Positions 13,627 through 33,724 of a stretch of 35,382 nucleotides of DNA are shown here, piece after piece. The stretch is taken from NCBI GenBank assembly GCA_018268605.1, contig JAFDWG010000324.1, positions 1-35,382 on the forward strand. The letters are read 5' to 3'. The position numbers and the translations under genes were made by a program. Each line of letters starts with the position of its first letter. Position 1 is the stretch's first letter. This DNA is from Actinomycetota bacterium (GTDB taxonomy: Bacteria > Actinomycetota > Thermoleophilia > Solirubrobacterales > 70-9). The notes beneath the pieces are model-generated. The model was not told the DNA's origin. It saw only the letters and a list, made by a program, of their open reading frames with translations, and made no database searches.

Positions 13627-13640
13627 TAATCTTGTACAAT
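13627..13640 (+). promoter_or_regulatory. Promoter abutting the helicase start (leaderless mRNA likely)
   Basis: TAATCT (13627-13632) and TACAAT (13635-13640) are -10-like hexamers immediately before and overlapping the ATG at 13639. Predicted starts fall at about 13639 or 13647, that is on the first ATG or beside the third codon, ATG 13645. No Shine-Dalgarno sequence precedes the ATG. TTGTACAA (13632-13639) is also a perfect palindrome and could be an operator, perhaps for the HTH of the same protein. Confidence 0.45.
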
Positions 13641-15696
13641 GTTGATGGTGGTTGATCTAGGAGAAGATTACCTGCGCGTCAGCGACGCAGCTGAGTACGT
13701 CGGCGTTTCAGCGCAGACGATGCGGAGGTGGGAAAAGCAGGGGCGGATCGAGGCGGTCAGGCATCCGAGCAATCGCTATCGCTACTACCGCCGGGCCGAC
13801 CTTGAGCCCTTCCGGCTCGAATACCAGCGGGCCGCGGCCGGCACTTCTGATCCTGGACGCCTCTTCCAGACGGCAAACGCAAACGTCGAGGCGAACGATC
13901 TGCTCCGCGAGCCCCAGCGGGGCGCGCACCGCGCGGTACGCGAGCACTTCGAATCGGAGGATGCGCCTGCGATCCTCCAGATCCCTGTCGGCTGTGGGAA
14001 GACCGGCATCATGGCGACGCTGCCGTTCGGGATCTCCAGCAGCCGCGTCCTGGTCGTTACGCCCAATCTGACGATCCGGAAAGGGGTTGCGACCGCCCTG
14101 GATATCGCGAGCCGCGAGTGCTTTTGGGCGAAGACCCGCGTACTCGATGACTTCCAGAACGGCCCGTACTTCGCCGTCCTCGACAGCCAGGACGCGAATA
14201 TCCACGACTGCACCGAGAGCCACTTCGTCGTCACCAATATCCAACAGTTGGTCAGCTCGGCCGATCGCTGGCTGCCGCAGTTCCCGCCAAATTTCTTCGA
14301 TCTGATCCTGGTCGATGAGGGCCATCACGCGGCGGCGGCGAGCTGGCAAAAGGTCTTCCGGCGCTTTCCCGACGCCAAGGTCGTCAGCTTGACGGCTACG
14401 CCGTTTCGCGCTGACGAACTTCCGCTTGAAGGCGACGTTATCTACCGGTACCCCTTTGCCCGGGCCATGATGAACGGGTTCATCAAGCAGATCCGAACCC
14501 GAAGCGTGGCTCCTTCAGAGCTGACCTTCACCTTCGAGGGCGACACCAGCGAGCACACGTTGGAGGAAGTCCTCGAACTACGGGAAGAGCAATGGTTCCG
14601 CCGCGGCGTGGCCCTATCGCCCGAGTGCAACCGGCACATCGCCGAGGCGAGCATCCAGACCTGCAATGCGTTGCGGGCGGAGACCGGCATTCCGCACCAG
14701 GTGATCGCCGCGGCGTGCTCAGTCGACCACGCGCGCCAGGTGAGCGCGATCTACGGGGAATGCGGTTATCGGGCGGCCGAGATCCACAACGAGATGAGCG
14801 AAGAAGAACGCGAAGCCGTTCTCGATCGCCTGCAGACGAATCAGCTGGACTGCATCGTGCAGGTTCAGATGCTAGGTGAGGGCTTCGACCATCCGCGCCT
14901 GAGCGTCGCCGCCGTTTTCCGCCCGTACCGCAGCCTCGCGCCATACATCCAGTTCCTCGGGCGGGTCATGCGGGTCGTCGTCCAGAACGAGCCTGACCAC
15001 CCGGACAACGTCGGGTACGTCGTCTCTCACGTCGGGCTCAACAACGAGGAGCGGTGGGACGAGTTCCGGGAGCTGGACCTCGAGGATCAGCGCCTGATTC
15101 ACGACTGGCTCGCCGCGGAGCCAGGCGAGGATGAGCCGCAGGGCGGCGTTGGAGAGCCTCGGCGCTTCGACACGATCAGTCTGGTCGACAGCGAGCTCGT
15201 GAGTCATTTTGTCGACCGGGCGTTTCTCGACCCCGAGGACGATCGCGTCCTGGACGAGCTGCTCTCGAAAGAAGTTGCCCCCGGTGTGGTGCTCAGGGAT
15301 CTTGTCGACAAGGAGAGACTCCGCGACCAGCTGCGGCAGAAACTCGCCGCCGAGCAGGACTTGCCGGCGCCGATACCCGTCACCCCTCAACGCCGGCGCC
15401 AGGCAGCGCGAAGCCGTCTGAGCCAGCGGACGGGATCGGTAGTGGCCCGCATCCTCAAAGACCTCGGACTGTCGCGTCCAGGGCGCGACGTCGCCAAGGC
15501 GCTCGGTGGTCTCCCGGCTCCCAACGTGCAGCGGGTGACCGTGCTCGTCAACCAGGAGATCAACAAATCGCTCGGGGTGCCGTCTAAATCCCGCAAGAGG
15601 CTGTCGGCTGATCAAGCCGAGACGGCGTTGCATTCGCTCGACGAAATCGGAGACCGCGTACGGGATCGGTTGCGCGGGGAATTGGGAGGCGGGTAG
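13639..15696 (+). CDS. SF2 helicase with N-terminal MerR-type HTH
   Basis: A 685-residue protein. Residues 10-55 are a MerR/HTH_17-type DNA-binding unit (LRVSDAAEYVGVSAQTMRRW, then NRYRYYRRADLEPF). An SF2 DEAD/DEAH helicase follows, of the RadD/type I-restriction-like group: Walker A VGCGKTG (117-123), DEGH box (226-229), motif III SLTATPFR (250-257), motif V LGEGFDHPRL (412-421) and motif VI QFLGRVMRV (438-446). The last 180 residues are charged and helical, with no recognised nuclease. The ATP-driven translocation of nucleic acid is well supported; the role is not. It overlaps the downstream 76-aa gene by one base, so the two act together. Joining a specific-type HTH to such a helicase suggests sequence-directed loading or autoregulation. 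Confidence 0.88.
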   Translation: MLMVVDLGEDYLRVSDAAEYVGVSAQTMRRWEKQGRIEAVRHPSNRYRYYRRADLEPFRLEYQRAAAGTSDPGRLFQTANANVEANDLLREPQRGAHRAVREHFESEDAPAILQIPVGCGKTGIMATLPFGISSSRVLVVTPNLTIRKGVATALDIASRECFWAKTRVLDDFQNGPYFAVLDSQDANIHDCTESHFVVTNIQQLVSSADRWLPQFPPNFFDLILVDEGHHAAAASWQKVFRRFPDAKVVSLTATPFRADELPLEGDVIYRYPFARAMMNGFIKQIRTRSVAPSELTFTFEGDTSEHTLEEVLELREEQWFRRGVALSPECNRHIAEASIQTCNALRAETGIPHQVIAAACSVDHARQVSAIYGECGYRAAEIHNEMSEEEREAVLDRLQTNQLDCIVQVQMLGEGFDHPRLSVAAVFRPYRSLAPYIQFLGRVMRVVVQNEPDHPDNVGYVVSHVGLNNEERWDEFRELDLEDQRLIHDWLAAEPGEDEPQGGVGEPRRFDTISLVDSELVSHFVDRAFLDPEDDRVLDELLSKEVAPGVVLRDLVDKERLRDQLRQKLAAEQDLPAPIPVTPQRRRQAARSRLSQRTGSVVARILKDLGLSRPGRDVAKALGGLPAPNVQRVTVLVNQEINKSLGVPSKSRKRLSADQAETALHSLDEIGDRVRDRLRGELGGG

Positions 15697-16059: not shown

Positions 16060-17424
16060 ATGGGTGACTACTGGACGAACGAATCCGTACTCGCTTTCGC
16101 CGGGTCGCGAGATCCGCTCGAGGCGGTCGAAGAAGCGGCAAGAACGGCCGTTTTCGAGGCCGTTGAGGCAGGTTGGAAAGGCCCTCCCTTCGACCCCTTC
16201 GAGCTCGCCCGTCTACGCGATGTCGAGGTCATTCCTCGCAACGAGCTCCGGGAAGCTCGGACGGTCCCGGCCGACGGCGGTGTCGCGATCGAATACAACC
16301 CCACGCGACCTCGCGACAGGGTGCGTTTCTCGATCGCCCACGAGATCGCCCACACCTTGTTCGGCGACGTCACCCGCGAACCCCGCTATCGACACAACCC
16401 CTCCGCCGGCCCTACCGACGGCTGGCAGCTCGAGATGCTCTGCAACGTCGCTGCCGCGGAGATCCTCATGCCCACCGAAGTCCTCGGCGAGCACGCCCGG
16501 AAACCGATGCGCATCGAGGAGCTAATGGCTCTACGTGCGACCTTCGGTGTTTCCACCGAGGCCCTCCTCCGCCGTGCCACCAAGCTGGCTAACTACCCGG
16601 TGGCAATGTTCGCGGCCGCGCGGACGCACCCGGACGCACTCGACTCGAGTTTCCGCATCGATTACACCGTCCCCTCCCTCGCCTGGGGACCGAAGATCCG
16701 TCGCGGGACCGAGCTTCCGGGCGAATCGGTACTGGCGGCGTGTACGGCCGTCGGCTTCACGGCCCGGGGCGAGGAAGACTGGCCCGACTCGCCGCGCGGT
16801 CTCTCGGTGCAGGCCGTCGGTACCCCGCCCTATCCGGGTCAGAGACTCCCACGAGTCCTCGGCTGGCTCAGGCCGAAGGGAGTGTCCCGGGTCAAGCGCA
16901 TCCAGATCGATGAACGCCACGGTGATGCGACGAGACCTCACGGCAGCGGCGAGCGGATGATCGTCCACCTCGTCAATGACCGGACCGCGAACTGGGGTGG
17001 CCAGTTCGCCCGTGCCCTGAGCCAGAGACACCCCCAGAGCCAAGACGATTTCCGCTCCTGGGTCGATGAAGATTCAGCTCGCCTCCATCTCGGTGCGACC
17101 CGAATAGTCAGGATGGGCGGCGGCCTTTCGGTGGCCAGCGTGGTGGCCCAGAAAGGCTACGGCCCCTCGAAGAAAGCCCGAATCCGCTACAGCGCGCTGC
17201 GTGACGCGCTGTCGGCAGTCGCCAGCACAGCCGCGGAAACGGGGGCGAGCCTTCACATGCCCCGCATTGGTGCGGGGCAGGCGGGCGGGCGGTGGCCCCT
17301 CGTCCGCGAGATCATCGAGGAGACCGTCATACGGGCAGGCGTCCCGGTCACGGTGTACGTGCCACCGAGCCAGGAGATCGCCGACGATCCGGAGCCCTAC
17401 ACCGAGCTCCGACTGAACGTGTAG
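16060..17424 (+). CDS. ImmA/IrrE-type metallopeptidase fused to a macro domain
   Basis: A 454-residue two-part protein, first gene of a four-gene operon. Residues about 45-260 are an ImmA/IrrE (M78-like) zinc peptidase: the helix SIAHEIAHTLFGD gives His94, Glu95 and His98, and AAAEILMP gives the third ligand Glu134; the C-terminal extension with SLAWGPKIRRGTELP and GTPPYPGQRLPRVLG is usual for larger members. Residues about 299-436 are macro-domain-like: MIVHLVNDRTANWGGQFARAL has the ADP-ribose loop Asn and Gly-Gly, and PRIGAGQAGGRWPLVREII is the second ligand loop. Macro domains bind or remove ADP-ribose; ImmA-type proteases cleave repressors. The joint occurrence suggests a protease gated by ADP-ribose or NAD-derived ligands, or an antitoxin-like hydrolase. 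Inference only. Confidence 0.82.
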   Translation: MGDYWTNESVLAFAGSRDPLEAVEEAARTAVFEAVEAGWKGPPFDPFELARLRDVEVIPRNELREARTVPADGGVAIEYNPTRPRDRVRFSIAHEIAHTLFGDVTREPRYRHNPSAGPTDGWQLEMLCNVAAAEILMPTEVLGEHARKPMRIEELMALRATFGVSTEALLRRATKLANYPVAMFAAARTHPDALDSSFRIDYTVPSLAWGPKIRRGTELPGESVLAACTAVGFTARGEEDWPDSPRGLSVQAVGTPPYPGQRLPRVLGWLRPKGVSRVKRIQIDERHGDATRPHGSGERMIVHLVNDRTANWGGQFARALSQRHPQSQDDFRSWVDEDSARLHLGATRIVRMGGGLSVASVVAQKGYGPSKKARIRYSALRDALSAVASTAAETGASLHMPRIGAGQAGGRWPLVREIIEETVIRAGVPVTVYVPPSQEIADDPEPYTELRLNV

Positions 17425-17430
17425 ATCCTG

Positions 17431-19038
17431 ATGTCCGGCGTCGTGGTCGTCCTCTCAGGTCCGGTGTCCTCAGGGAAGACCACGCTCGCCCGGCGTCTCG
17501 CGGAGAGATTCGGCGCCAGGCATCTAAAGACGAGCACGCTCCTCGAAGCGATCTCCGAAGGGAAAGTTAAGCGCGAGCGGTGGGCGATGCAGAAACTCGG
17601 CTCGAGGCTCGATCGGGAGACGGATGGCGCCTGGATAGCCGAGGGCTTCGCGCAAGGAATCGAAGAGATGCCCTCCGACGCGGTGATCGTGATCGACGCA
17701 GTACGCACGCTCGAGCAGATCGAGGGCCTTCGCAGTGGTCTTTCCCGCGCAGTGGTTCATGTTCATCTGACGGCACCCCTGGCGGCACTGGAACGACGCT
17801 ACGCCCGAAGGCCTAAGTCTCGTTTCGCGGAGCGCGCAAGTTACGCCGAGGTCCTCAAGGACAGAACGGAGAAGCGCGTGCCGCTGCTGGCGGACGACGC
17901 CGACGTGGTCATCGACACCGGCAGGAGCACGCGTCCCGACGTCGCCGTCAGGGCGGCCAGCTATCTGGGGCTCAATGCCCGCGATCCAGGGGCGCTCGTG
18001 GACGTGATCGTCGGCGGGCAGTACGGAAGCGAGGGCAAGGGCAACATCGCCTTTGCGATCGGGCCGGAGTACGACCTTCTCTGTCGCGTCGGCGGCCCCA
18101 ACGCCGGTCACAAGGTGCCGCTGGACATGACCCTGACCCACCGGCTCCTGCCCTCCGCCACGCGCTCCGGCGAAGCGCCGATCGTGATCGGACCCGGAGC
18201 AGTCCTCGACATCGATGTCCTTTTCAATGAGATCGCCGAATCCGAGGTCGAGTACGGACGTCTTCACATCGATCCACAGGCGATGATCATCAACGCCTCC
18301 GACATCGAGGCCGAGGGCGGTCTCATGAACACCATCGGCTCCACCGGGAAGGGCGTCGGCGTCGCCACCGCCCGGCGTATCACCGAAAGGGACAAGCCGG
18401 CAGAACTCGCGCGAGACGTAAAAGCGCTGGAGCCGTTCATCGCTCCGACCGGCGAGATACTCGCTGACGCCTATTCGAGGGGATCGAGGATCCTCCTCGA
18501 GGGGACCCAGGGCTCAGGACTGAGTCTTTACCACGGCCACTACCCACACGTGACTTCGCGCGACACCACCGCGGCCGGATGCCTGGCGGAGATGGGCATC
18601 TCGCCCTCGCGGGTTCGCCGGGTGATCATGGTGTGCCGGACCTATCCAATCCGTGTCCAGAGCCCGTCCGGCAAAGGGAAAACCTCGGGGCCAATGAGCC
18701 AGCCGACGAACTGGACCGAGATATCACGACGTTCGGGCATTGCGCTGAAGGAGTTCCGCCGGGTCGAGAAAGGCTCGGTATCCAAGAAAAAACGTCGCGT
18801 CGGCGAGTTCGATTGGGACCTCCTCCGGAGGAGCGCCGAGTTGAACGGGGCGACCGACATCGCACTAACCTTCGTCGACTATCTGGACGTGAAGAATCGC
18901 GACGCCCGCCGCTTCGATCAGCTGCAGCCGGAGACGATCCGGTTCATCGAGGAGGTCGAGCGGGTCTCCGGGGCGCCCGTCTCCCTGATCTCGACCAGGT
19001 TCCACCTCCGTAGCGTCATCGACAGACGAGCCTGGTAG
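17431..19038 (+). CDS. P-loop nucleotide kinase fused to a PurZ-like adenylosuccinate synthetase
   Basis: A 535-residue fusion starting 6 bases after the ImmA-macro stop. Residues 1-180 form a P-loop kinase of the NMP/dNMP type (Walker A GPVSSGKTT at 10-18, acidic VIVIDAVRT at about 85). Residues about 190-535 are adenylosuccinate synthetase: GGQYGSEGKG (195-204), GGPNAGHK with the catalytic His at 227, STGKGVGVA, EGTQGSGLS with Gln360, and YPHVTSRDTTAAG. Ser200 replaces the catalytic Asp (Asp13) of PurA, as in phage PurZ, which makes 2-aminoadenylosuccinate from dGMP and aspartate. The domain is also about 90 residues shorter than PurA, again as in PurZ, and ends EFDWDLLRRSAELNG. A dGMP- or dNMP-directed ligase fed by its own kinase is the likely meaning. 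Confidence 0.85.
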   Translation: MSGVVVVLSGPVSSGKTTLARRLAERFGARHLKTSTLLEAISEGKVKRERWAMQKLGSRLDRETDGAWIAEGFAQGIEEMPSDAVIVIDAVRTLEQIEGLRSGLSRAVVHVHLTAPLAALERRYARRPKSRFAERASYAEVLKDRTEKRVPLLADDADVVIDTGRSTRPDVAVRAASYLGLNARDPGALVDVIVGGQYGSEGKGNIAFAIGPEYDLLCRVGGPNAGHKVPLDMTLTHRLLPSATRSGEAPIVIGPGAVLDIDVLFNEIAESEVEYGRLHIDPQAMIINASDIEAEGGLMNTIGSTGKGVGVATARRITERDKPAELARDVKALEPFIAPTGEILADAYSRGSRILLEGTQGSGLSLYHGHYPHVTSRDTTAAGCLAEMGISPSRVRRVIMVCRTYPIRVQSPSGKGKTSGPMSQPTNWTEISRRSGIALKEFRRVEKGSVSKKKRRVGEFDWDLLRRSAELNGATDIALTFVDYLDVKNRDARRFDQLQPETIRFIEEVERVSGAPVSLISTRFHLRSVIDRRAW

Positions 19039-19047
19039 GAAACCGGC

Positions 19048-19713
19048 ATGAAGCCCGAGGAGATCGCCGTGCACTACCCACGCCTGTTCCATATGGCCAA
19101 CCTCAGCTCATGGCCGAGCGTCCGGCGAGACGGCCTCCTCTCGACCCGTTCCCTCGTCGACCTCTATGAAGTCGACGGGGCACTCCGTGAGGAAATCCTC
19201 AGCACCCGTCGCCGCCACTCGATCCCGCTGGAGCACGGCGAGCTCGGCACGGCCGTCGTCCGGGACCAACTGCCTCTTAGGGAGAAGGCCCTCGAGAAGT
19301 GCCTTACAGACATGACGCTCGGCGATTGGCTCGAGACCCTGAACTCCCGGGTCTTCTTCTGGCTCGACGAACCTCACCTCGAGAACCTCCTCGGCGCCAG
19401 GGCTTACAAGGAGGATGCTCACGATGTGATCATCGTCGACACGGCGACGCTCGTTGATCGCGACGGTCCGAAGGTGAGGCTCTCCCCGATCAACTCGGGT
19501 TCGACCCTCTACAACCCCCGCCCCCGCGGCTCCCAGACGTTCCTTTCGATCGAGGACTATCCGTTCGCGGAGCGCCGACGCGCCCGCGGCAAGAACGCGA
19601 TCGTCGAGCTCGCGGTCGAAGGCGGGGTCGAGCGGATTGAGGAGGTGGCCGTGCGTGCCGAGAGACGTCGATGCGGCGGTGTGATCGAGGAGGTGCTGTG
19701 GGAGCGGCCGTGA
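19048..19713 (+). CDS. DUF7002-like protein, possible ADP-ribosyltransferase fold
   Basis: A 221-residue protein, 9 bases after the kinase-synthetase gene. The N terminus LFHMANLSSWPSVRRDGLLS (13-32) resembles the opening 'HxxxxxxxxSIxxxGLL' of Tpt1/KptA and DarT-like ADP-ribosyl transfer enzymes. Further conserved-looking pieces are VRDQLPL, LNSRVFFWLDE (98-108), DVIIVDTATLV, SPINSGSTLY (146-155) and a late Glu in IVELAV (187). This pattern fits the family I know as DUF7002, which has no proven activity. An R/H...S...E transferase triad could be His15 or Arg101, Ser151 and Glu187, but this is a guess. Its place in an operon with a macro domain, the usual antidote or reader of ADP-ribose, supports the idea. 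Confidence 0.7.
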   Translation: MKPEEIAVHYPRLFHMANLSSWPSVRRDGLLSTRSLVDLYEVDGALREEILSTRRRHSIPLEHGELGTAVVRDQLPLREKALEKCLTDMTLGDWLETLNSRVFFWLDEPHLENLLGARAYKEDAHDVIIVDTATLVDRDGPKVRLSPINSGSTLYNPRPRGSQTFLSIEDYPFAERRRARGKNAIVELAVEGGVERIEEVAVRAERRRCGGVIEEVLWERP

Positions 19714-20282
19714 CGATCTCGCTCGAGGGCCTGCCCGGCTCGGGCAAGACGACCACCGCCGAGCTCCTCGCCGGCATGATCGGGGTCGACTTCGCGCACG
19801 AGCGCTCTGCCGACGTCCCCTTTCTGGACGATTTCTACAGAGACGTCGAGCGATATACGTTTGAGACCGAGCTCTGCTTCGTTCTCGTCCATTATCACCA
19901 GTACCGCGACCTGCAGGGATCCACGATCCTCGACTTCTCGCCGGTAAAGGATCTCGTCTTCGCGGACGTGAATCTGGCGGGACGGGAGTACGAGCTCTTC
20001 CGTTCGATCTACGATCACACCTCGGGCTCCTGCCCCCCTCCTGACTTCGCCATCTTCCTGGAGCTTGAGACGAAGCACCTGTTGGAACGCATCGAGCAGC
20101 GTGGTCGGGCCTATGAGGTCGGCTTCGACGGCACCTACCTGGAGGCCGTCGGCGAGGGCTACCTCAGACGATTTGAGGAACTCGGAGATCAGGTCGGAAG
20201 GGTCCGGGTCTTACGGGACGACACCCGAGACGACGTCGCCGATGCTGTCAGAACCGCGCTAGCGGAGCTCGGCGCTCTCTAG
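19710..20282 (+). CDS. Deoxynucleoside-kinase-like P-loop protein
   Basis: A 190-residue protein. GTG 19710 overlaps the preceding stop as GTGA and places the P-loop strand at the N terminus (TISLEGLPGSGKTTTAELL); an upstream GTG at 19698 would add four residues. FLDDFYRDVERYTFETELCF matches the 'FxxDFYxDxxRxxFxxE' motif of dGK/dAK-type deoxynucleoside kinases, and ERIEQRGRAYE is the LID arginine segment. The DRS/DRY motif of the family is replaced by LDFSPVKDLVFA, so the substrate pocket or catalytic base may differ. It probably phosphorylates a deoxypurine nucleoside, which would supply the synthetase encoded two genes upstream. It is the last gene of the operon and is followed by a hairpin. 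Confidence 0.78.
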   Translation: MTISLEGLPGSGKTTTAELLAGMIGVDFAHERSADVPFLDDFYRDVERYTFETELCFVLVHYHQYRDLQGSTILDFSPVKDLVFADVNLAGREYELFRSIYDHTSGSCPPPDFAIFLELETKHLLERIEQRGRAYEVGFDGTYLEAVGEGYLRRFEELGDQVGRVRVLRDDTRDDVADAVRTALAELGAL

Positions 20283-20348: not shown

Positions 20349-21292
20349 TCAGACGTCGGATCGTAAGCCGTGCTTCTCCGCCGCCCACTTCAAGACCTCC
20401 GGCCCGACCGGCAGATCTCTGATCAGCTCCTGCCAGGAGACGGACACAAAGTTCACACCGCCGTCGCCGTAGTCGGCCACCGTCTCCCGAAGGACCACCG
20501 GCCAACCCGGCCAACGCCCAGTGGGACGGAAGTAGGGATTGTCGGCGTCGTAGATCAGACCGAACGCCGCTTCCCGGCCACCGCCGAGAGCGATCGCCGC
20601 GGCGGAATTCCGGACGGCCTGGTAGCCGGCGTGGATCGGGCAGGGGGTCCCCTCCTCCGGCCGGTTGAGACCGAAGATGCGTTCGGCAGCCGTCCAATAC
20701 GCATCCCGGCCGAGTATCCGCTCGCTGCAGTGACCGACGTCGGGTTCCTCGCAACCACAGGCGCTAATGCCGGGCTCAGTCCACTTCGCCTCCATCCAGA
20801 GGACCGACCCGGACGATTCGGCAAAGAAATCGAGCGCCGTCTGCCGCGGCCGCTCGCCCAACGTGTCGGGCTCGAGCTTCTTCTCGAACTGCGTTGTAAA
20901 CGGGGTCCCGGCGCTGGCCGGCATCCATGGCTCCAGGCTGCCGAACAGCCAGTCAAGCGCAGGACGTCGGGCGACGGCCGGGCCCAGGAGCCGAGGGCGA
21001 GGATCTGACTGGAGTTGGCTGAGAGGTGCTCACGATGGAGCTCGGATTCCGGGATCCGATCGGCCAGCACATCCCATCCAGGAGGAAGGGCGCTGGCGAT
21101 GTCGCGCGCCCGCAGTGGATGATCGCCAGCGAGCTGGGGATTGGCGGCGAAGTACCGCCGGTAGCGCTCGTTCTTCGCGCGCCTGTATTCACCGTGTGCC
21201 ACGCCACACTCGGCGGCTATCGCCGTGTTCGTCCAATTCCGGAGGTCTGCCCCGCCGATCGGCACCCGGCAATCTTGCCGCATTGGCATCAC
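20349..21292 (-). pseudogene. Frameshifted PGN_0703-like PD-(D/E)XK endonuclease
   Basis: Two minus-strand frames form one protein of about 314 residues. The first (from ATG 21292) reads through RYRRYFAANPQLAGDHPLRA to ELHREHLSANSSQILALG. At about 20995 the reading must shift: the next frame continues LLGPAVARRPALDWLFGSLEP, then on from 20924 to the stop. One missing base in CTCGGCTCCTGG explains this, since the span is 944 bases. The second part has the nuclease core: Asp in TALDFF, then 12 residues later MEAKW with Glu-x-Lys. Layout and motif context fit the PGN_0703 family of putative restriction endonucleases. It may be a true mutation, a sequencing error or, less likely, programmed frameshifting. 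Confidence 0.65.
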
Positions 21293-25633: not shown

Positions 25634-26526
25634 CAATCCGCCACCCGGCCGAGCCAGTCGATCTCGAGGCCCGGCTCACGGAGGCCGCGGAAGATCGGCG
25701 CATAGGGACCGCAGGCAACGAGGTCCTCGAGCAGGCAGATGCGGACCGCGACCTCAGGGCTTCGGGACAACCCCGGCTTTGCCCGGAGCAGGGCAAGCGC
25801 GGTGTCGCGGCGGCGTTCGAGCACCTCCCGTCCGGCGCCGGCGAGGACGCAGAGGACCCCCGGGAACACTGGGTAGCGACGGCGCCACACCGGCGTGCGG
25901 TCCTTGCCCTGCGCCGCGAAGAGCTCGGCGTATCTCGCCAGCTCGGCCGCCATCGCGTCCACCGGCAAGGTCGCCCGGTCGAGCTCGAGGAAGCGCTGCT
26001 CGACCAGCACCTCCTCCTCGGTCAGTCGTAGGTAGGTGAGGACGGCGTCGGCGATCACCACCCGCGCCCGCCTGCCGCGGGCGCCCGGGTGGAGCGGATG
26101 GGCGACCTCGTGGCGCCATGCGAGCGGGCCGAAGTCCTCGCCACGTTCGCGGGCGGCGCGCAGGAAGGCGATCGCCGCCTCGTTGACCGCGACGGTGTGC
26201 GCCTGCAGGGGTCCCCGTACCTCCTCGGCCGACATCACCCTCGGGGCCCGCGGCAACGTCCCCGCACCCACCGCGACCCGGATCCCCTCCTCGGTCGCGA
26301 ACCAGAGCCGCTGCGGGGCGCCGCTCGTGCGGGTGTGGTCGACCAGGCCGGCCGCGGCGATCCGCGAGAGGACCCGCCTGCACCAGCGCTCCTTCGCTTT
26401 CGGCAGGTGGATCGTCGCGATCTGCCGTGCGGAGAGGGCCCGGTGGACGGCGAGCGAGGCGACGATCTCGATCGTCGCCGCCGGCAGCCCCTGCGGGTTC
26501 GGGATCACGGGGGTCCTCGTCTTCAT
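25633..26526 (-). CDS. Replication-relaxation family protein
   Basis: A 297-residue protein with the Replic_Relax (PF13814) pattern: an N-terminal winged helix (LSARQIATIHLPKAKERWCR, then VLSRIAAAGLVDHTRT and a wing PQRLWFATEEG) followed by an alpha/beta domain with VNEAAIAFLRAARERG, DAVLTYLRLTEEE and FLELDRAT. Such proteins are encoded on actinobacterial plasmids and ICEs next to the coupling ATPase, as here, and are thought to act at the origin of transfer or replication. ATG 26526 overlaps the coupling-protein stop as ATGA. Confidence 0.8.
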   Translation of the reverse strand: MKTRTPVIPNPQGLPAATIEIVASLAVHRALSARQIATIHLPKAKERWCRRVLSRIAAAGLVDHTRTSGAPQRLWFATEEGIRVAVGAGTLPRAPRVMSAEEVRGPLQAHTVAVNEAAIAFLRAARERGEDFGPLAWRHEVAHPLHPGARGRRARVVIADAVLTYLRLTEEEVLVEQRFLELDRATLPVDAMAAELARYAELFAAQGKDRTPVWRRRYPVFPGVLCVLAGAGREVLERRRDTALALLRAKPGLSRSPEVAVRICLLEDLVACGPYAPIFRGLREPGLEIDWLGRVAD

Positions 26527-29153
26527 CCGTTCCTCCTGCGCGAGACCCCGAGCGCCGAGGGCGGCGACCCTCTTTGCGCTGGCGCAGGCGCTCCCGCCTC
26601 ACCCTCGCCGAGGCGTTCCAGTGCCTCGAGGATGCGGGCATCGAGCGTCTCCTGGTGGGCCAGCGCCTCGACCGCCTTGCGCCTGCAGCCCGACGCCTCG
26701 ACCGCGATGCGCAGATCGGCGAGCGCCTCGGGGCTCCCTTTCCCGAGCCCGTCCTCGACCCGCACGCCACGCAGGGCGAAGGGCGCGGAGAGCTCGCCGC
26801 CCTCGGTGACCTGGGCGACGAAGTGGTAGCGACGGAGTCGCGTCAATGCCGCCGGGTCGACGCCACCACCGAGCTCCCGAGCGACCAGGGCGGCGGCGTG
26901 GGAGTTGAGCGCCGAGACTAGGAGGTGGGAGCGGTTGGTGGTCAGCGCGTGCAGGGTCGCCGGCCGCAGCCGCTCGGGGTCCTGGTTCAGGAATATCCCC
27001 CGCAACCCGAACTTGGCCGACTGCTCGAGCAGGGCGGCGAGGCTCTCGCTGTCGTAGGACTGAACCTCGTCGAAGACGGCGACGAATCTCTTCCGTTTCT
27101 CCGGATCGAGCGCCGCCCGTGAGCGGGCGGCGTGGAGGAGGTCGAAGGCCAGGAGGCCGGCGACCAGCTTCTCCCGTGGTCCGCCCGAGCCCGGACAGGC
27201 GAGGACGATCAATCCCTCATCCATCGCCTCGCGCACCGAGAAGGTCCCCTCGCTCTGCCCGAAGAGCGCGGTGGTCGCCCGCGAGGTGCGGAGGCGGTCG
27301 ACCAGGTTCGTCACCGGCGTCACCGCCTCGGGGGACAGGAGCGGGAAGCGATCGGTCCAAAAGCCGCGGGCGTGGGCCGGGAGGAATGGGATCACCGCCT
27401 CGCGCCATGACTCGTCGGTGAGAAGGGTCGGCAGCTGGAAGATCGTCGGCGCGATCTCCTCCGGCACCACCTCGGCAACCCTCGCCAACGCCGCCGCGGC
27501 CTGCGTGGTCAGGTTGATCGCCCGCGTCGACTGCTCGCCCCATCCCACCGCCGCTGCAAAGGCGGCGACGATCGCGTCGACCCGCGCCTCCGGGTCGGCG
27601 CCTCGCATCCCGAAGAGGTTCCAGGCAGGCTGAGATTCGGGGCCGCCTGGGCCAAGGTCGATCTCGACCACCCGGCCCGCCACCTGTGGATCGCCCAGAT
27701 AGGGGCGAATCCGCTCGAGCGCGTCACCGTGGGGGTCGAGGAAGAGTCCGCCCTGGCCGGAGCGGACCAGGTGGGTGAACATCGCGATCGCCGCCTCGGT
27801 CTTGCCGTAGCGGGAGCGACCGGCGACATAGGTGAAGAAGCTCTCCTCGGCCCGCACCCCGACCAGACGCCCGCCGCCCTCGGCCGAGATGCGACCGACC
27901 GGGATCAGATCCTGCCTCTCCGGGGAGAATTCGGGGAGTGGCGGAGGCGGGGACAGGACCGCGCCGGAGCGGAGCACCGCCTCGACCGGACAGGCCAGGG
28001 TCGGCGGCTTCAGGAACCCGATCACCTCGGCCGCGGTGACGACGGCCCTCCTCGCGGGACGGAAGAGCCCGGTCTCCGCCCGCCGATCGAAGCGCCGCCT
28101 CCGCCCCGGCAGGTCGGAGCCGAGGAAGTCGAGACCGAGCAGCGGGATCCCGCGGACCCGCAGATAGTTGCGATCGGCGCTCCGAGCGAAGGCGTCGCGG
28201 ATACCCGCCATCAGCATCTTCGCCCGCCCCTTCCCAGGCGCGCTCACGCGAAGGAGGATCTGCGCCTCAAAGAGGGTCGAGCCGTCCCGCAGCTTCGACT
28301 CGAGCGCCCGGCCCAGCATCCGGCGGTCGAGGAGGTCGACGGGGTCGCGACCACGAGCCTGGCGCTCGCCGCCGAGTACCTCGGCGACCGACAATCCGGG
28401 CTCGCGGTTCCGTCTCCTCGCCTGTCTGCGCATCCGCCGCCGAAGCCTCGCCGCGCGGAACCCCGCCGCGGGCAGGAGGTCGACGTTCACCTCCGCCACC
28501 TCGCCGCGGTCACGGCGCACGCCAGCGAGCGCCGCGGCGAACGGGGTCAACGGATCAGGGTCGAGCGGCAGGCGCGCGAGCGGCTCCGAGGGCGGTCGGG
28601 CGAGGACCATCTCGGCGCGGACCGTCTTCAGTTCGCTCTCGCCCTCACCCTCGCCCTCGACCGCCAGGACCTCGGATGCGTCCTTGATCTCGACGCCCCT
28701 GTATGGACGGAGGGCGGTCCGCAACCGGGGCAGCTCTCGCTCGGGAACCTCGATGACGTAGACGAGCCGGCCCGAGGCATCGTTGGTCAGCCGGACCCGG
28801 ACCGCGCTCGCCGGTCGGTCGGTCCAGCCGCCGACCCGGTGCCCGGCCTGGGCCAGGCCGGCGGCGAAGGCCGCGACCGTCTCCGGTCGCGGCGCGAAGC
28901 CGTCGGCCGGGACTATCGCGACCGCACGCCGCGAAGCGAGCGTGCGGCGGGTGGCAAGGATGCGGTGTGTCGCCGGCGCCGAGGCGATCGCGGTCGCGCC
29001 GAGTGCGAAGGGGATCAGCGAGGCGGGATGGACACCGTCCAGGTGAGGATGGAGGTGCGCCTCGGAGAGGAGATGCCAGGCGGCGAGCGCGACGATCGCG
29101 GCGACGACGAGGACGATCGGCCAGCCATCATCGGTGCGGCGAGAGGGACCCAT
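26523..29153 (-). CDS. VirD4/TraG-like conjugative coupling ATPase
   Basis: An 876-residue protein. ATG 29153 starts it, overlapping the preceding stop. Residues 12-29 and 43-60 are membrane helices; 80-430 is a long alpha/beta region; the motor has Walker A GRSRYGKT (445-452), LFLDPHGD (470-477) and Walker B FVAVFDEVQ (690-698), and later FLNQDPERL and TNRSHLLVSAL. This is the arrangement of the type IV coupling proteins of Gram-positive elements, with DPHGD as in the TraG/VirD4/HerA-like superfamily. It would take relaxase-bound DNA from the replication-relaxation side to the channel. The longer upstream frame is rejected because it overlaps the upstream gene. Confidence 0.88.
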   Translation of the reverse strand: MGPSRRTDDGWPIVLVVAAIVALAAWHLLSEAHLHPHLDGVHPASLIPFALGATAIASAPATHRILATRRTLASRRAVAIVPADGFAPRPETVAAFAAGLAQAGHRVGGWTDRPASAVRVRLTNDASGRLVYVIEVPERELPRLRTALRPYRGVEIKDASEVLAVEGEGEGESELKTVRAEMVLARPPSEPLARLPLDPDPLTPFAAALAGVRRDRGEVAEVNVDLLPAAGFRAARLRRRMRRQARRRNREPGLSVAEVLGGERQARGRDPVDLLDRRMLGRALESKLRDGSTLFEAQILLRVSAPGKGRAKMLMAGIRDAFARSADRNYLRVRGIPLLGLDFLGSDLPGRRRRFDRRAETGLFRPARRAVVTAAEVIGFLKPPTLACPVEAVLRSGAVLSPPPPLPEFSPERQDLIPVGRISAEGGGRLVGVRAEESFFTYVAGRSRYGKTEAAIAMFTHLVRSGQGGLFLDPHGDALERIRPYLGDPQVAGRVVEIDLGPGGPESQPAWNLFGMRGADPEARVDAIVAAFAAAVGWGEQSTRAINLTTQAAAALARVAEVVPEEIAPTIFQLPTLLTDESWREAVIPFLPAHARGFWTDRFPLLSPEAVTPVTNLVDRLRTSRATTALFGQSEGTFSVREAMDEGLIVLACPGSGGPREKLVAGLLAFDLLHAARSRAALDPEKRKRFVAVFDEVQSYDSESLAALLEQSAKFGLRGIFLNQDPERLRPATLHALTTNRSHLLVSALNSHAAALVARELGGGVDPAALTRLRRYHFVAQVTEGGELSAPFALRGVRVEDGLGKGSPEALADLRIAVEASGCRRKAVEALAHQETLDARILEALERLGEGEAGAPAPAQRGSPPSALGVSRRRNG

Positions 29154-29821
29154 CAGCGATCCGCCTTGGTGTGGCGGGGAGATCTCGGCAGATTCCGACC
29201 ACGGGATTCGCCGGTGTGATGCGGAGAACCGCCGCTCGGCGGCGAGATCGGGGTGGCCGGCGGGCGGGCCCGTAGACGGGCCTCGGGGGTGGCCCGCAGG
29301 TGGGCCTGAGTCGGCTGGATGGGGCGCGGACCGCTCTCCGCCCGGAGGCGCGGAAGATAGGCGCGACCGGGGTCGTCGAAGCGGCGCAGGAACCATGCCC
29401 AGCCGCGACGGGCGGCGGCCGTCGAGGGCGCCCGGACCTCGAGCACCGCCCGACCGTCGCGGGCGCCGACCAGCGTGACCGACACCCCACCGTGCCGCCA
29501 CGGCACATGCTGCAGCGCCCGGTGGGTTTCGAGCTCTCGCTCGGCTCTTCCGTGGGCCGAGGTCCCCGGTCGGTCCTGGGGGTCTTGTCGTCGCGCTGCG
29601 CCGGAAGGGCCCGCGGGCCTCGGCGCGGCGCGCTCGGGCTGCCCCACCCCTTCGGTCGGCGCCGTTGCCGGGTGGTCACCTGCTGCTTGTCCGTCCTCGC
29701 GGACCGAAGCGGCGACCAGGCAGGCGAGGCCGACGGTCACGACCATCGCGAGCAGCACCACCTGCCTCGCCACCTCCGGGTCGAGAGGACGCTCGAGGAG
29801 CACGCGCAGCCGCCCGATCAC
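29153..29821 (-). CDS. Single-helix conjugation protein, unknown role
   Basis: A 222-residue bitopic protein. GTG 29821 overlaps the stop of the hydrolase gene as GTGA. Residues about 15-41 contain a membrane helix (VARQVVLLAMVVTVGLACLV), then a Pro/Ala-rich linker rich in Arg, and a folded part from about 110 (HVPWRHGGVSVTLVGARDGR, RRGWAWFLRRFDD) before a disordered Pro/Arg tail. Topology is like small pore or linker proteins (VirB8- or TcpC-sized), but no sequence match is clear. Its stop overlaps the coupling-protein start. Confidence 0.65.
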   Translation of the reverse strand: MIGRLRVLLERPLDPEVARQVVLLAMVVTVGLACLVAASVREDGQAAGDHPATAPTEGVGQPERAAPRPAGPSGAARRQDPQDRPGTSAHGRAERELETHRALQHVPWRHGGVSVTLVGARDGRAVLEVRAPSTAAARRGWAWFLRRFDDPGRAYLPRLRAESGPRPIQPTQAHLRATPEARLRARPPATPISPPSGGSPHHTGESRGRNLPRSPRHTKADR

Positions 29822-30990
29822 GACCGACCCCCTTCGTGACCGAGGCCGGGTGGCTCGGCGTAGGCGTATATCGGGCCGGCCTCCCCCTCCGCGACCGCGA
29901 GGCCCGGAGGGAACGGCCCGACCCGGGCGACCCGGTCGCCGAAGTTGCCCTCGATCGTGACGATCTCGCCGCCGAGGACCGACTCGACGATGCCGACGTG
30001 TTCGGAGGCGGTCGGGCCCCAGCCGTAGAGGACGGCGTCGCCGGGCGAGGGCGTAGCGCCCGGCGGCAGGACCCGCCCGCCGTGTTCCTTCACCCAGCCG
30101 TAGAAGGAACCCGAGTACGCATAGGGCGCGGTGCCACCCTGCATCGGGACCCCGGCGTGCTCCCAGACCCAGGCGACGAAGAGCGCGCACCATTCCTCGC
30201 AGGGGCCGAACTTCGAGCAGTTGGAGCCGAGGGGACTCTCGGTCACGCCGAGCTGGGAGCGCGCGATCCTGACGATCGCCGAGCCCGAGGCCCCGGTCCC
30301 GACCGCGGCCGACCCGCCGCACCCGGCCCCCTGCGACACCCGGACAGATTCGTGGGCGCCACCTGAGACCCAGCCTTCCTGGCTGAACCCGAAGGAGACC
30401 GCCCGGGCCATCACCTCGTGGGCGTAGTCGACGATCCCGTCGGCGCAGGCGCCGTAGTAACTGCAGGCGGCCCGGTAGTAGCCCTCGTAAGCGCCGCCGG
30501 CGGGAGGGGCGCCGAGGTCAGAGCGGAAGATCCGCGCCGCGGTGAAGATCGCGTCGGCCGGGTCGAAGATCGAGGCGCCGTTGCCGTCGGCGTCGACCCT
30601 GAAGCGCTCCCAGAGGGTCGGCACCGAGGGATCCGGGCTGCATTCCGAGCCCCGCACGTAGGCGATCTCCATCACCCCGGCGCAACCCGAGGGCGCGACC
30701 CCGCAGTGCCCGTCGGTCCCGCACTCCTGCACACCGATCGCGGCGAGGAAGGGCCAGCTGATGTTGAACCGTGCCCCCGCCCCCATATATATGTGGAGGC
30801 GGGCGGCGGGGAGTTCGCTGAGCGCCTTACCCGCCGGCGCCGGCCCCCCAGCGATTCCAGTGGCCCCGCCGCCCACGCATCCGAGCTGGGCGCCGAAGGT
30901 CGCCATGATCGCCGCGGTGATGAGTGCGGCGATCAGAGCCGCCGTGCCGGCCGCGGCGAGCGGCCAGGCCTTGCGGGCGCCGCTCGTCAT
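29818..30990 (-). CDS. Lytic transglycosylase / CHAP wall hydrolase of the transfer system
   Basis: A 390-residue bifunctional wall-opening enzyme. Residues 9-33 are a membrane anchor. Residues about 70-200 are a transglycosylase-like domain: ISWPFLAAIGVQECG with Glu89 as candidate catalytic acid, then GVMEIA, DPADAIFTAARIF and YYGACADGIVDYA. Residues about 245-375 are a CHAP amidase: CEEWCALFVAWVWEHAG with Cys268, PSPGDAVLYGW and HVGIVESV with His331. This two-domain form is the Gram-positive VirB1 equivalent (TcpG-like) that cuts peptidoglycan at the mating pore. ATG 30990 overlaps the VirB6-like stop. Confidence 0.87.
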   Translation of the reverse strand: MTSGARKAWPLAAAGTAALIAALITAAIMATFGAQLGCVGGGATGIAGGPAPAGKALSELPAARLHIYMGAGARFNISWPFLAAIGVQECGTDGHCGVAPSGCAGVMEIAYVRGSECSPDPSVPTLWERFRVDADGNGASIFDPADAIFTAARIFRSDLGAPPAGGAYEGYYRAACSYYGACADGIVDYAHEVMARAVSFGFSQEGWVSGGAHESVRVSQGAGCGGSAAVGTGASGSAIVRIARSQLGVTESPLGSNCSKFGPCEEWCALFVAWVWEHAGVPMQGGTAPYAYSGSFYGWVKEHGGRVLPPGATPSPGDAVLYGWGPTASEHVGIVESVLGGEIVTIEGNFGDRVARVGPFPPGLAVAEGEAGPIYAYAEPPGLGHEGGRS

Positions 30991-33179
30991 CGCCCCTCCT
31001 CTGAATCGTCCGGCCTGCGATGGCTCGGGGCTGGCTTTGCCTGGGGCGCTCGGGCCGCGGACTCCTCGCGCGGCGCAGCCTCGGATCCAGCCTTCCTCCG
31101 CTCCGCCCGCGCCCGCTCGGCGTCAGCTCGCAGCTCCTCGCCGAGGCCGCCCTCGCGCGGCCGCGGAGAGCCGGCGGGCGGGGGCGTCGACTGCGCTCGC
31201 TTCCCGGCCCGGTTCGGCCGCGGCGGCGAGGAGTCCGCGGCCCGACGTTCGGAGTCGGCCCGCCCCTTGGGCTTCCGCTTCTCGGATCCCTCCGCGGCCT
31301 GGCGCCGCTCGGTGCTCCGATCGACGCCCGCCCGTCGCCGCTGCTGGTCCGCGCGGCTCTCCCGCCGCGGGCGGTCCTCACGGTCGGCCGCTCGCTCCCG
31401 CTCGGGCCCGCGCCTCGCCGGGACCGGCCGCTCGGTCCTCGCCACCCGCCGCTCGCCCTGGGCCGAGGAAGTCCCTGCGGCTTCGGCTGCCTCAGATCGT
31501 GCCGCGGGTCGGGGCGGATCGTCCCCGCTCCGGCCGGTCCCGGGCCGGCGATCCGGTGTCGAGCCGTCGCCTCCCGCCGGCTGTGCGCTCGTCGCGTCTC
31601 CTCGCGCGGCGTCCCGCGGGCGGCCTTGACGCATCCGCGAGCCAACCGCCCTGACCGGCCGGGTCACGGTCCTCGCCCCGAGCCTCGCCCCCGAGTAGAG
31701 CGCCAGCACCTCGAGCGCCTTCCCCCCTCCCGGCACCCCCGGCCCGGTGACAGCGCCGATCAGGCCGTCGGTGAGCGAGCGTCGCTGCAGGAAGACCGCC
31801 CAGAAGAAGGCGCACTGCAGCCCGAACGAGAGCAGCCAGCCGAGCTCGGAGGTGGCGGCCGAGATCGCCGCGCAGACCGCCAGCAGCACCGCGAGCACCA
31901 GCGAGTAGGCGGCCTTCCGCAGCAGCAGGCCGGCCAGCTTCGAGAGCCACCCCTTGAAGAACTGATGCCCTCTCCCGGGGATCGCCGCCGCGACCAGGGC
32001 GACCGGGCTGAAGGCGAGCAGGAGGAGCAACAGGACCTGGGCGGTGATCACCCCGATCGAGAGCGCCCCCAGCAGGACGAAGGCGCCGAGCTCGGCGCAG
32101 AAGACGACGATCGCGACCAGCAGCCGCTGGTACTGGCCGCCCTTTTCCATCGCCGCCGCGGCGGGGGTGTCGACCGGGCCGAGTTCGTAGTTGCCGTCCT
32201 TCTTGCCGGGGTCGGCGTCGGGTAGCTTCGACGAGTCGCCGTGCGAGAGGGCTTCGAACTCTCCGTCGCGATCGTCCGACCCCGGTTCGAAGCGCAGGAA
32301 GTGCGGCCCGTACTTCTTTAGGTTGTCGATGCAGGTCTTGCCGCCCGCCGAGACCTGTTCCCCGGATTCCAGCCGCCGCGCTGCGCCTTCGGGCAGCGGC
32401 TGCACCGCGACCGATTCAGGTTCCTCCCCTCCCCCTGCCTTCACGCAGTGATCGAGGCCACCGAACTCGAGCACCGACCAGGGCTGGGCGACCAGCAGGC
32501 CGAACAGCTGGTTCGCGCCCGCTTCCTTCGCTTCACCCTGGCTGACGGGCTCGCCGTCCTTGGCGATCGAGAGGAACGCCCCCGACATCGCGTTCGTCCA
32601 GTGCGAGGCCTCGCCGATCGTCTGCGCCGGCTGCAGGACGAAGAGGAAGGCGATCCCGACGTAGACGAGGGAGAGGGCGAGCTGGCCGGCGGTCTCCGCG
32701 TAGCGCCTCTGCACCAGCGCCTTCCACATCGCCCAGCAGCCCGACACCGATACCGCGAGCACCATCCAGGGACCGCCGAAGACGTCGGCGTAGATCGAGG
32801 AGATCGCGCGCGAGACCGGCCCGAGGGCGCCGGCGCCGTTCGTCGCCGCCGATCCGTTCACCAGGTCGAGCGAGAAGGCGAAGGCGAAGAGTTCGATCAG
32901 CAGATTCGCGAGCCAGGCGGTGAGCTGCCAGAGCTCGTTGGCGAAAAAGTAGGCGATCATCGGTAGGAGGCCGGAGACGTCGACGCCGCTGAAGACGCCG
33001 GCCGAGACCGCCGTGAAGTGCTCGTCGAGGGCGTAGTTGCCGAGCGGATAGCGCGTCGCCAGCCCGGCCAGCGAGGGGGCCGGCCCCACGTTCGCCCAGA
33101 CGTCGGCTTGCGCGACCGGGCCGCAGAGCAGGACCAGTGCCCCGGCCGCCGGCAGCACCAGCAGGATTCGCCGCCTCAT
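30987..33179 (-). CDS. VirB6/TrbL-like polytopic transfer protein
   Basis: A 730-residue protein. Residues 1-26 are a signal peptide (MRRRILLVLPAAGALVLLCG, ending VAQADVW). Two groups of membrane helices follow, at about 75-215 and 365-500, with a soluble loop between them that carries paired Cys. This is the TrbL/VirB6 design. Residues about 530-730 form a very basic, Arg/Ala/Pro-rich tail, likely disordered and cytoplasmic, that could bind DNA or the ATPases. ATG 33179 is the start, overlapping the VirB4 C-terminal stop. Confidence 0.82.
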   Translation of the reverse strand: MRRRILLVLPAAGALVLLCGPVAQADVWANVGPAPSLAGLATRYPLGNYALDEHFTAVSAGVFSGVDVSGLLPMIAYFFANELWQLTAWLANLLIELFAFAFSLDLVNGSAATNGAGALGPVSRAISSIYADVFGGPWMVLAVSVSGCWAMWKALVQRRYAETAGQLALSLVYVGIAFLFVLQPAQTIGEASHWTNAMSGAFLSIAKDGEPVSQGEAKEAGANQLFGLLVAQPWSVLEFGGLDHCVKAGGGEEPESVAVQPLPEGAARRLESGEQVSAGGKTCIDNLKKYGPHFLRFEPGSDDRDGEFEALSHGDSSKLPDADPGKKDGNYELGPVDTPAAAAMEKGGQYQRLLVAIVVFCAELGAFVLLGALSIGVITAQVLLLLLLAFSPVALVAAAIPGRGHQFFKGWLSKLAGLLLRKAAYSLVLAVLLAVCAAISAATSELGWLLSFGLQCAFFWAVFLQRRSLTDGLIGAVTGPGVPGGGKALEVLALYSGARLGARTVTRPVRAVGSRMRQGRPRDAARGDATSAQPAGGDGSTPDRRPGTGRSGDDPPRPAARSEAAEAAGTSSAQGERRVARTERPVPARRGPERERAADREDRPRRESRADQQRRRAGVDRSTERRQAAEGSEKRKPKGRADSERRAADSSPPRPNRAGKRAQSTPPPAGSPRPREGGLGEELRADAERARAERRKAGSEAAPREESAARAPQAKPAPSHRRPDDSEEGR

Positions 33180-33724
33180 CGCGAACGCTCCCGCGGGGTC
33201 GTGTCGAGGGCTGCCAGGAGCTCCGGCAGCGGATCGACCTGGACCTCGCCGACCCTGCCGTCGAGGTCGCGCATCAGGCACCGCCCCCGCCGGTACTCGG
33301 TCACCCGCTGGGCGAGTCCGCCCTCCTCGGGGTCGAGGCCGATCTCCGCGATCCCCGCCGCCGCGGCCCTGATCGAGTCCTGGCCGAAGAGGAGCGTGAC
33401 CCCGACCAGCTGCGAGAGCTCGCCGAGGTCCTCGACCCGCTGGCTGACCAGGAGGATCGTCGCGTTGAACGCGCGCCCGAGCCGCACCAGACGGTTGAGG
33501 AGGGCCCGCCCCTGCGAGGAGGCGAAGAGCGCCCAGGCCTCGTCGAGGACGACGAGCTTGTGGCGCGAGCGATCGCCGGAGATCAGCTTCAGGGCCAGGG
33601 CGGCGACCAGCGCCAGGGTCGCCACCGAGACCCGCTCCGAGCGCGTGTAGGCGGCGCGCTCGGTGCCGGGCTCGGGCAGGTTGAGGCCCGGCATCCGGAT
33701 CGTGATCAGGTTCGGCGCCGCCAT
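33176..33724 (-). CDS. VirB4-like ATPase, C-terminal half (Walker B)
   Basis: A 182-residue polypeptide that continues the VirB4 fold. It has LNLPEPGTE, an all-helical stretch, the Walker B HKLVVLDEAWALFAS, a following LVRLGRAFNATILLVSQRVEDL with the conserved Gln of the motor, and the C-terminal helices. On its own it lacks Walker A, which sits at the end of the upstream gene. ATG 33724 shares bases with the upstream stop (TGATG), so the two are coupled. Together they equal a normal VirB4; the break at this point is unusual. Confidence 0.8.
   Translation of the reverse strand: MAAPNLITIRMPGLNLPEPGTERAAYTRSERVSVATLALVAALALKLISGDRSRHKLVVLDEAWALFASSQGRALLNRLVRLGRAFNATILLVSQRVEDLGELSQLVGVTLLFGQDSIRAAAAGIAEIGLDPEEGGLAQRVTEYRRGRCLMRDLDGRVGEVQVDPLPELLAALDTTPRERSR

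Follow-up and report, generated by a model that had tools for sequence, protein, structure and literature searches.

The 35,382-nucleotide stretch of DNA analyzed here (contig JAFDWG010000324.1 of assembly GCA_018268605.1, from an Actinomycetota bacterium of the Solirubrobacterales; hereafter, the window) carries a gene in which an adenylate-kinase-like P-loop kinase domain is fused to a short adenylosuccinate synthetase (AdSS) domain with serine at the position of the catalytic aspartate of PurA. The AdSS domain belongs to one clade with the phage enzymes PurZ and PurZ0 and lies within neither of them, and the gene is part of an operon that is conserved across phyla. Based on these findings, we propose for the fused protein the role of a PurZ-type purine-nucleotide:aspartate ligase within a mobile ADP-ribosylation cassette of the antiviral or abortive-infection type, a reading to which we give about an even chance. 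The cassette probably represents an antiviral or toxin-type system that has not been described.

The fused gene (17431 to 19038, + strand) translates as a single open frame of 535 residues. Residues 1 to 185 (17431 to 17985, +) form the kinase domain, as supported by Pfam (AAA_17/AAA_33/AAA_18), by a structure-model match and by conservation. The model, with a predicted local distance difference test score (pLDDT) of 94, gives Z 18.6 against the Sulfolobus adenylate-kinase-related protein 3lw7 and Z of about 16 against adenylate and UMP/CMP kinases. Its Walker A motif (residues 9 to 17) is intact (S9, G10, G15, K16), and R50, D61, Q96, H110, H112 and R123 are invariant across the family. A preliminary description of this DNA, made from the sequence alone, had correctly recognized the fusion to a kinase. 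It had also called the start of the AdSS domain P-loop-like; that segment is the GTP-binding loop of AdSS, whereas the kinase has its true P-loop at residues 9 to 17.

The AdSS domain comprises residues 190 to 535 (17998 to 19035, +) and starts at nucleotide 17998 with VDVIVGGQYGSEGKG; its 346 residues agree with the short, PurZ-like length given earlier. It matches Pfam Adenylsucc_synt (E 1.9e-52), the Protein Data Bank (PDB) entries 2d7u/5k7x (E 2.6e-59) and, with E 3.6e-85, the short archaeal type NF003295 of NCBIfam, where its score of 285.8 stays below the cut-off of 368; matches this strong cannot be due to chance. Its scores are likewise below the cut-offs of the curated PurA model TIGR00184 (193.7 versus 395.55) and of the PurZ model NF038379 (190.7 versus 300). 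A canonical PurA is encoded on another contig of the same genome. With scores under all curated PurA cut-offs, a separate PurA in the genome and a place in the Ser clade according to the tree, the approximately unbiased (AU) test and the pocket residues, the domain is not PurA.

The serine that defines this clade, Ser200, is encoded by AGC at 18028 to 18030 (+) and occupies the position of Asp13 of Escherichia coli PurA and of Ser23 of S-2L PurZ, confirming what had been read from the sequence. The position is serine in all 26 fused sequences of the tree set and in 68/68 fused relatives of a wider alignment, and aspartate in 11/11 long PurAs and 2/2 short archaeal PurAs aligned. One pattern used for scanning whole genomes included the serine and was thus biased toward Ser forms; in protein-similarity searches without that key, the close matches were again all Ser forms. 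The catalytic His227 and the Gln/Thr substrate loops, noted earlier as retained, are present (Thr305, Gln360, Thr375), as are Arg408 and Arg455; Ser200, His227, Gln360, Thr375 and Arg455 are invariant across the fused family. When the pocket is compared by the numbering of S-2L PurZ (PMC8342488), S23, V241 and R280 correspond to Ser200, Val409 and Arg455, each in 68/68 relatives. Ser200 supports a 2-amino substrate at the level of sequence, although the serine alone would not prove use of dGMP.

In a 75-row maximum-likelihood tree, for which the Ser column was kept in the alignment, every Ser-bearing sequence falls in one clade (support 100/99) adjoining the Asp-bearing short archaeal PurA. 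The phage side of this clade holds PurZ, PurZ0 (including those of Wayne and Ghobes) and viral forms; on the cellular side the fused family is monophyletic (100/100) beside unfused bacterial and some viral forms. Constraining the fused family to group with the Asp-type archaeal PurA was rejected (AU p 0.0067). Placement inside canonical PurA, which the preliminary description had named as an outcome that would overturn it, was therefore not found; a reading of the domain as PurZ itself is not supported either, as the fused family is a separate sister branch inside neither PurZ nor PurZ0. The nearest named relative in the searches and the tree is from a Solirubrobacterales bacterium.

With phage PurZ (S-2L and phiVC8; PDB 7odx and 6fm1), the fused family shares the short AdSS fold, the serine in place of Asp13, the histidine, the Gln and Thr loops, the Ser clade and the Phe306-type stacking residue, here Phe481. 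It differs in being fused to a kinase, in reading GSEGKG where PurZ has GSTGKG, in having Asp483 at the donor base (Gln/Asn in PurZ) and Gly or Thr at 448, and in lying in a bacterial or archaeal operon with an ADP-ribosyltransferase, with no Z polymerase seen among the identified neighbors. PurZ0 (Arthrobacter phage Wayne and Gordonia phages; PDB 7vf6) shares the serine, an R-V-G-G-P-N-A-G-H-type motif, a PIRV..SGP motif and the aspartate at the donor position; in contrast, the two PurZ0 compared read GSEAKG, and PurZ0 forms its own clade apart from the fused family. PurZ0 phages also carry DutZ and often DmtZ, which the fused operons lack, whereas unfused bacterial relatives have a dCTP-deaminase-like gene. 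The short archaeal PurA (Pyrococcus horikoshii, PDB 5k7x; NF003295) resembles the fused AdSS domain in length and is its best overall structural match, but has aspartate where the fused family has serine; the fused domain also scores below the NF003295 cut-off, and its grouping with this PurA is rejected.

The conserved operon is absent from the preliminary description. Clustering of neighbors at 93 loci gave a core order, conserved across phyla, of an M78 plus macro gene, the fused gene and DUF7002. In the window, the first of these (16060 to 17424, +; 454 residues) encodes an ImmA/IrrE-type M78 metalloprotease domain (Pfam M78, E 3.6e-12) followed by a C-terminal macro domain; 6 bp separate its stop from the fused gene. 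This macro-M78 gene is immediately upstream of the fused gene in 60/93 loci. Its family profile matches the macro structure 2afc (E 1.7e-46) and IrrE/CapP structures (E about 1e-11), and the protein matches capP of the PADLOC defense-system models (E 2.2e-19). The zinc motif H94, E95, H98 and E125 is intact in 32/32 sequences; macro position 365, which was matched by eye to the catalytic lysine of TARG1-type macro domains, is variable. The M78 domain, intact zinc motif and defense-like context are shared with the CapP/IrrE proteases, from which the cassette protein differs by its C-terminal macro domain and by having no conserved helix-turn-helix partner gene that we found beside it.

DUF7002 (19048 to 19713, +; 221 residues; PF22531, E 4.4e-64) begins 9 bp downstream of the fused gene, which it follows directly in 81/93 loci. 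Its model (pLDDT 97.3) has as first match the guanine-modifying DarT1 8baq (Foldseek E 3.4e-4; Z 10.7), and its seven best fold matches are all DarT enzymes, so we predict it to be an ADP-ribosyltransferase of DarT-like fold. H15, R55, R72, D73, Y120 and E187 are conserved in 60/60 sequences, and E187 would be the catalytic glutamate. Against DarT family models, DUF7002 gave no PADLOC match, Pfam returned DUF7002 alone, and the profile match to 8baq reached just E 0.097. The Pfam entry describes no activity, and we found no paper on the family in the open-licence literature. DarT1 attaches ADP-ribose to the amino group of guanine (PMC11543638). As in DarTG1 and DarTG2, a DarT-fold ADP-ribosyltransferase is here paired with a macro-domain protein; the cassette differs in that DUF7002 is its own Pfam family, the macro domain is fused to an M78 protease, and a ligase-kinase gene lies in between. 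DUF7002 was also seen alone in three loci of one phylum (L256, L257 and L261, in genomes G376, G272 and G198), next to an apparent dnaE gene (DNA polymerase III alpha), a hint that it might serve near replication on the chromosome.

The operon continues with a deoxynucleoside kinase (dNK; 19710 to 20282, +; 190 residues; Pfam dNK, E 5.7e-24), whose likely GTG start overlaps the DUF7002 stop (GTGA). Because of this overlap and the gaps of 6 and 9 bp, the four genes look co-transcribed. The same four genes are present in genome G055, where the overlap recurs with an intact dNK copy; dNK also occurs in G060 and G185. Against PDB, the dNK matches the deoxynucleoside kinase 8puu (E 1.4e-19) and the deoxyguanosine kinase 2jaq (E 3e-8). 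The preliminary description had stated that the other Z-genome genes are missing. This holds only loosely: dNK is the one companion in the window, but several lineages carry MazG, HD-phosphohydrolase, dNK or dCTP-deaminase-like genes. A MazG-type pyrophosphohydrolase is found at 14 actinobacterial loci, seven of them arranged as MazG, macro-M78, fused gene and DUF7002. A YfbR-like HD gene is found at 11 alpha-proteobacterial loci, all without macro-M78; the protein of about 450 residues found with the HD gene in Rhizobiales matched nothing in Pfam or PDB. We considered this HD protein as DatZ, for which the case is weak; YfbR-type dNMP phosphatases are closer to it. PurZ and PurZ0 phages encode MazZ, DatZ and DutZ, which are pool enzymes as well (PMC8342488, PMC12884076), and the functional classes of the companions seen here match those accompanying phage PurZ (MazZ, DatZ) and PurZ0 (DutZ). 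The best indirect evidence for the substrate is this independent recurrence of deoxynucleotide genes, because of which a guanine deoxynucleotide is suggested.

Unfused relatives form a module of their own. A dCTP-deaminase-like gene lies beside the Ser-type AdSS gene in all four cellular unfused cases examined (L031 in G060, L263 in G185, L028 on Sinorhizobium medicae pMl5 and L269 in G505); judged by eye, the proteins of L028 and L031 have a membrane segment near the C-terminus. Two of the four modules have dNK, and L028 has a YfbR-like HD gene. A conserved protein of about 258 residues without Pfam match (c14) occurs at nine fused loci (e.g., L074, 4366 to 5142, −), with a relative beside the unfused AdSS of L031 and a weaker one in L263.

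The cassette is sporadic and mobile in distribution. From 84,980 species genomes scanned, 414 matches were confirmed and 79 loci retained. The fused family occurs in far fewer than 1% of the sampled species, with only one or two fused copies per phylum sample of 246 to 347 genomes. It is nevertheless spread over Actinomycetota, Planctomycetota, Acidobacteriota, Verrucomicrobiota, Chloroflexota, Myxococcota, Pseudomonadota, Bacteroidota and others, and over archaea. The full-length relative in G055, with the same gene order, is 76% identical; eight large plasmids, mostly rhizobial, carry full-length relatives at 43–49% identity; none of 11 same-genus genomes searched has the fused gene. A scan of viral contigs with the single fused protein as query gave no match, and one with the alignment as query found fused copies, one of them cut off, in six viral contigs. 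One archaeal contig holds two diverged copies in convergent orientation (L066, 9842 to 13985). The mobile-element setting proposed for the window is real: GC content at 13–22 kb is below that of the flanks, and conjugation-type genes at 25–35 kb (Replication-relaxation, CHAP and VirB4/TraG-like AAA_10; 25636 to 35382, −) read as a conjugative or integrative element.

The surroundings are rich in defense genes. Among 103 neighbor proteins sampled from fused loci, 177 PADLOC models were matched (E ≤ 1e-10), versus 3 for 103 neighbors of canonical purA in ten cassette-carrying genomes; since models overlap, with many restriction-modification models per gene, the figure reads as enrichment and not as a gene count, which tempers its weight for an antiviral role. 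Plasmid copies adjoin AbiEi/AbiEii, SIR2, AbiJ and RelA/SpoT genes, and unfused relatives adjoin a CD-NTase (CBASS-type cyclase) gene (L031) and a BilD gene (L028). In the window, an SF2 helicase with an N-terminal MerR/excisionase-type helix-turn-helix lies upstream of the cassette (13639 to 15696, +; PADLOC mREase_IV and PbeA-like matches), and a frame on the opposite strand (20349 to 20924, −) matches REase-ARP of Pfam (restriction endonuclease associating with ARP; E 3e-8). The cassette itself matched no whole PADLOC system, only components (capP at 2.2e-19, a weak DarG, and mad8), and in the open-licence literature we found no paper on a cellular PurZ-type defense system.

Taking these together, we suggest a plausible mechanism, in which the substrate, product, order of steps and antiviral role are those that we infer. 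The ligase would most likely act on a guanine nucleotide, dGMP or possibly GMP, and attach aspartate at its C6; from the resulting N6-succino-2-amino-(deoxy)adenylate, cellular PurB could then form a 2-aminoadenine nucleotide. The fused kinase domain and dNK, or elsewhere MazG, HD and dCTP-deaminase-like proteins, may supply the guanine deoxynucleotide or phosphorylate the ligase product. As the middle gene, the kinase-ligase would work between the macro-M78 protease and the DarT-like ADP-ribosyltransferase; the latter may target the 2-aminopurine nucleotide or DNA or work in concert with it, and the former would bind ADP-ribose-type products and control the response by proteolysis. In its most novel form, the cassette would be a new kind of immune system: the PurZ-type ligase-kinase would produce a 2-aminopurine (deoxy)nucleotide conjugated to an amino acid, the transferase would ADP-ribosylate it, and the macro domain of the M78 protease would sense the product and trigger proteolysis. 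We consider this form rather improbable.

Several observations weigh against the proposal of a PurZ-type ligase in an ADP-ribosylation cassette. While the activities of PurZ and PurZ0 are biochemically known (PMC12884076, PMC8342488), the ligase activity of every member of the fused family is a prediction. The PurZ-specific substrate-contact residues (Q308/N297 and T273) are not matched. The donor-base residue Q308 of S-2L corresponds to Asp483 in 68/68 relatives, as in PurA and PurZ0, where PurZ has Asn or Gln; because of this aspartate, the sequence suggests GTP rather than ATP as phosphate donor. T273 corresponds to Gly448 in the window, which is PurA-like; the residue here varies among relatives, with Thr in 40/68. 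The inter-subunit nucleotide-phosphate contact (R146 of S-2L, R143 of E. coli PurA) is not conserved at the aligned position; residue 320, one past it, is Arg in 56/68. In overall fold and identity, the AdSS-domain model is nearer to P. horikoshii PurA (Z 46.0, 39% identity) than to PurZ0 (41.1, 35%) or PurZ (41.3, 31%). About a third of the loci lack macro-M78, and since accessory genes vary by lineage, no single one of them is required. Copies of DUF7002 adjoining dnaE have no ligase with them, so DUF7002 need not depend on the ligase product or share a substrate with the ligase.

These points bear on other explanations. The PurA-like Asp483 and Gly448 and the structural closeness to archaeal PurA would fit a ligase in which the serine is just tolerated and which still converts IMP to adenylosuccinate, as PurA does, or acts on a different 6-oxopurine, for example a 7-deazapurine nucleotide. 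A related domain does occur within a 7-deazapurine nucleoside-type cluster of Rhizobium leguminosarum (plasmid pCC283b_4, L029, 8363 to 16711), which contains genes for FolE, an Asp-type AdSS, PurB, QueE, IMPDH, nitrile hydratase, QueC, HAD and a phosphoribosyltransferase and resembles the 7-deazapurine nucleoside antibiotic clusters of toyocamycin type. However, that relative keeps the aspartate and falls outside the Ser clade, so we reject a purely metabolic reading of the fused family by way of this cluster; with the invariant serine and a canonical PurA already in the genome, we judge PurA-like chemistry unlikely. The common clade with PurZ and PurZ0, the mobile setting and the few fused copies in viral contigs could also mean that a mobile element captured a phage Z-DNA gene and makes 2-aminoadenine for its own DNA. 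The fused family is a sister branch and not within phage PurZ or PurZ0, and no DNA polymerase is among the identified conserved neighbor clusters, which leaves this origin very improbable.

Two further explanations accept a defensive or toxic role and assign the ligase a different part. Enzymes that deplete deoxynucleoside triphosphates are an established theme in defense, and the recurring MazG, YfbR-like HD, dNK and dCTP-deaminase-like partners fit pool control: the dGTP/dGMP pool would be drained by MazG/HD hydrolysis and then by conversion of dGMP to succino-dZMP, starving phage replication, with the ADP-ribosyltransferase as a separate killing arm. In the neighborhood of the commonest architecture (46 of the 93 loci), however, neither a MazG nor an HD gene was found, and the fused kinase and macro-M78 protein are left unexplained; we therefore give depletion a small chance. 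A similarly low probability attaches to a DarTG-like toxin-antitoxin pair, with DUF7002 as toxin, macro-M78 as antidote or regulator, and the kinase-ligase as a regulatory or accessory protein whose product is beside the point. The DarT fold of DUF7002 with its invariant H15 and E187, the macro domain as in DarG and the conserved gene pairing agree with this idea. It is at odds with the variable position 365, with alpha-proteobacterial sets that retain ligase and DUF7002 without macro-M78, and with the invariant catalytic residues of the ligase, which suggest selection for ligase activity.

In the papers that we found, PurZ-type ligases are described from phages, plus four basal archaeal sequences in a survey limited to two PurA homologues or fewer for each prokaryotic phylum (PMC12884076). 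Here we see a cellular Ser-type branch, fused to a kinase and operon-linked to a predicted ADP-ribosyltransferase, in many bacterial phyla and in archaea, and DUF7002 gains a predicted activity. The finding makes testable the question of whether cells may make 2-aminoadenine-type nucleotides themselves and use them against viruses.
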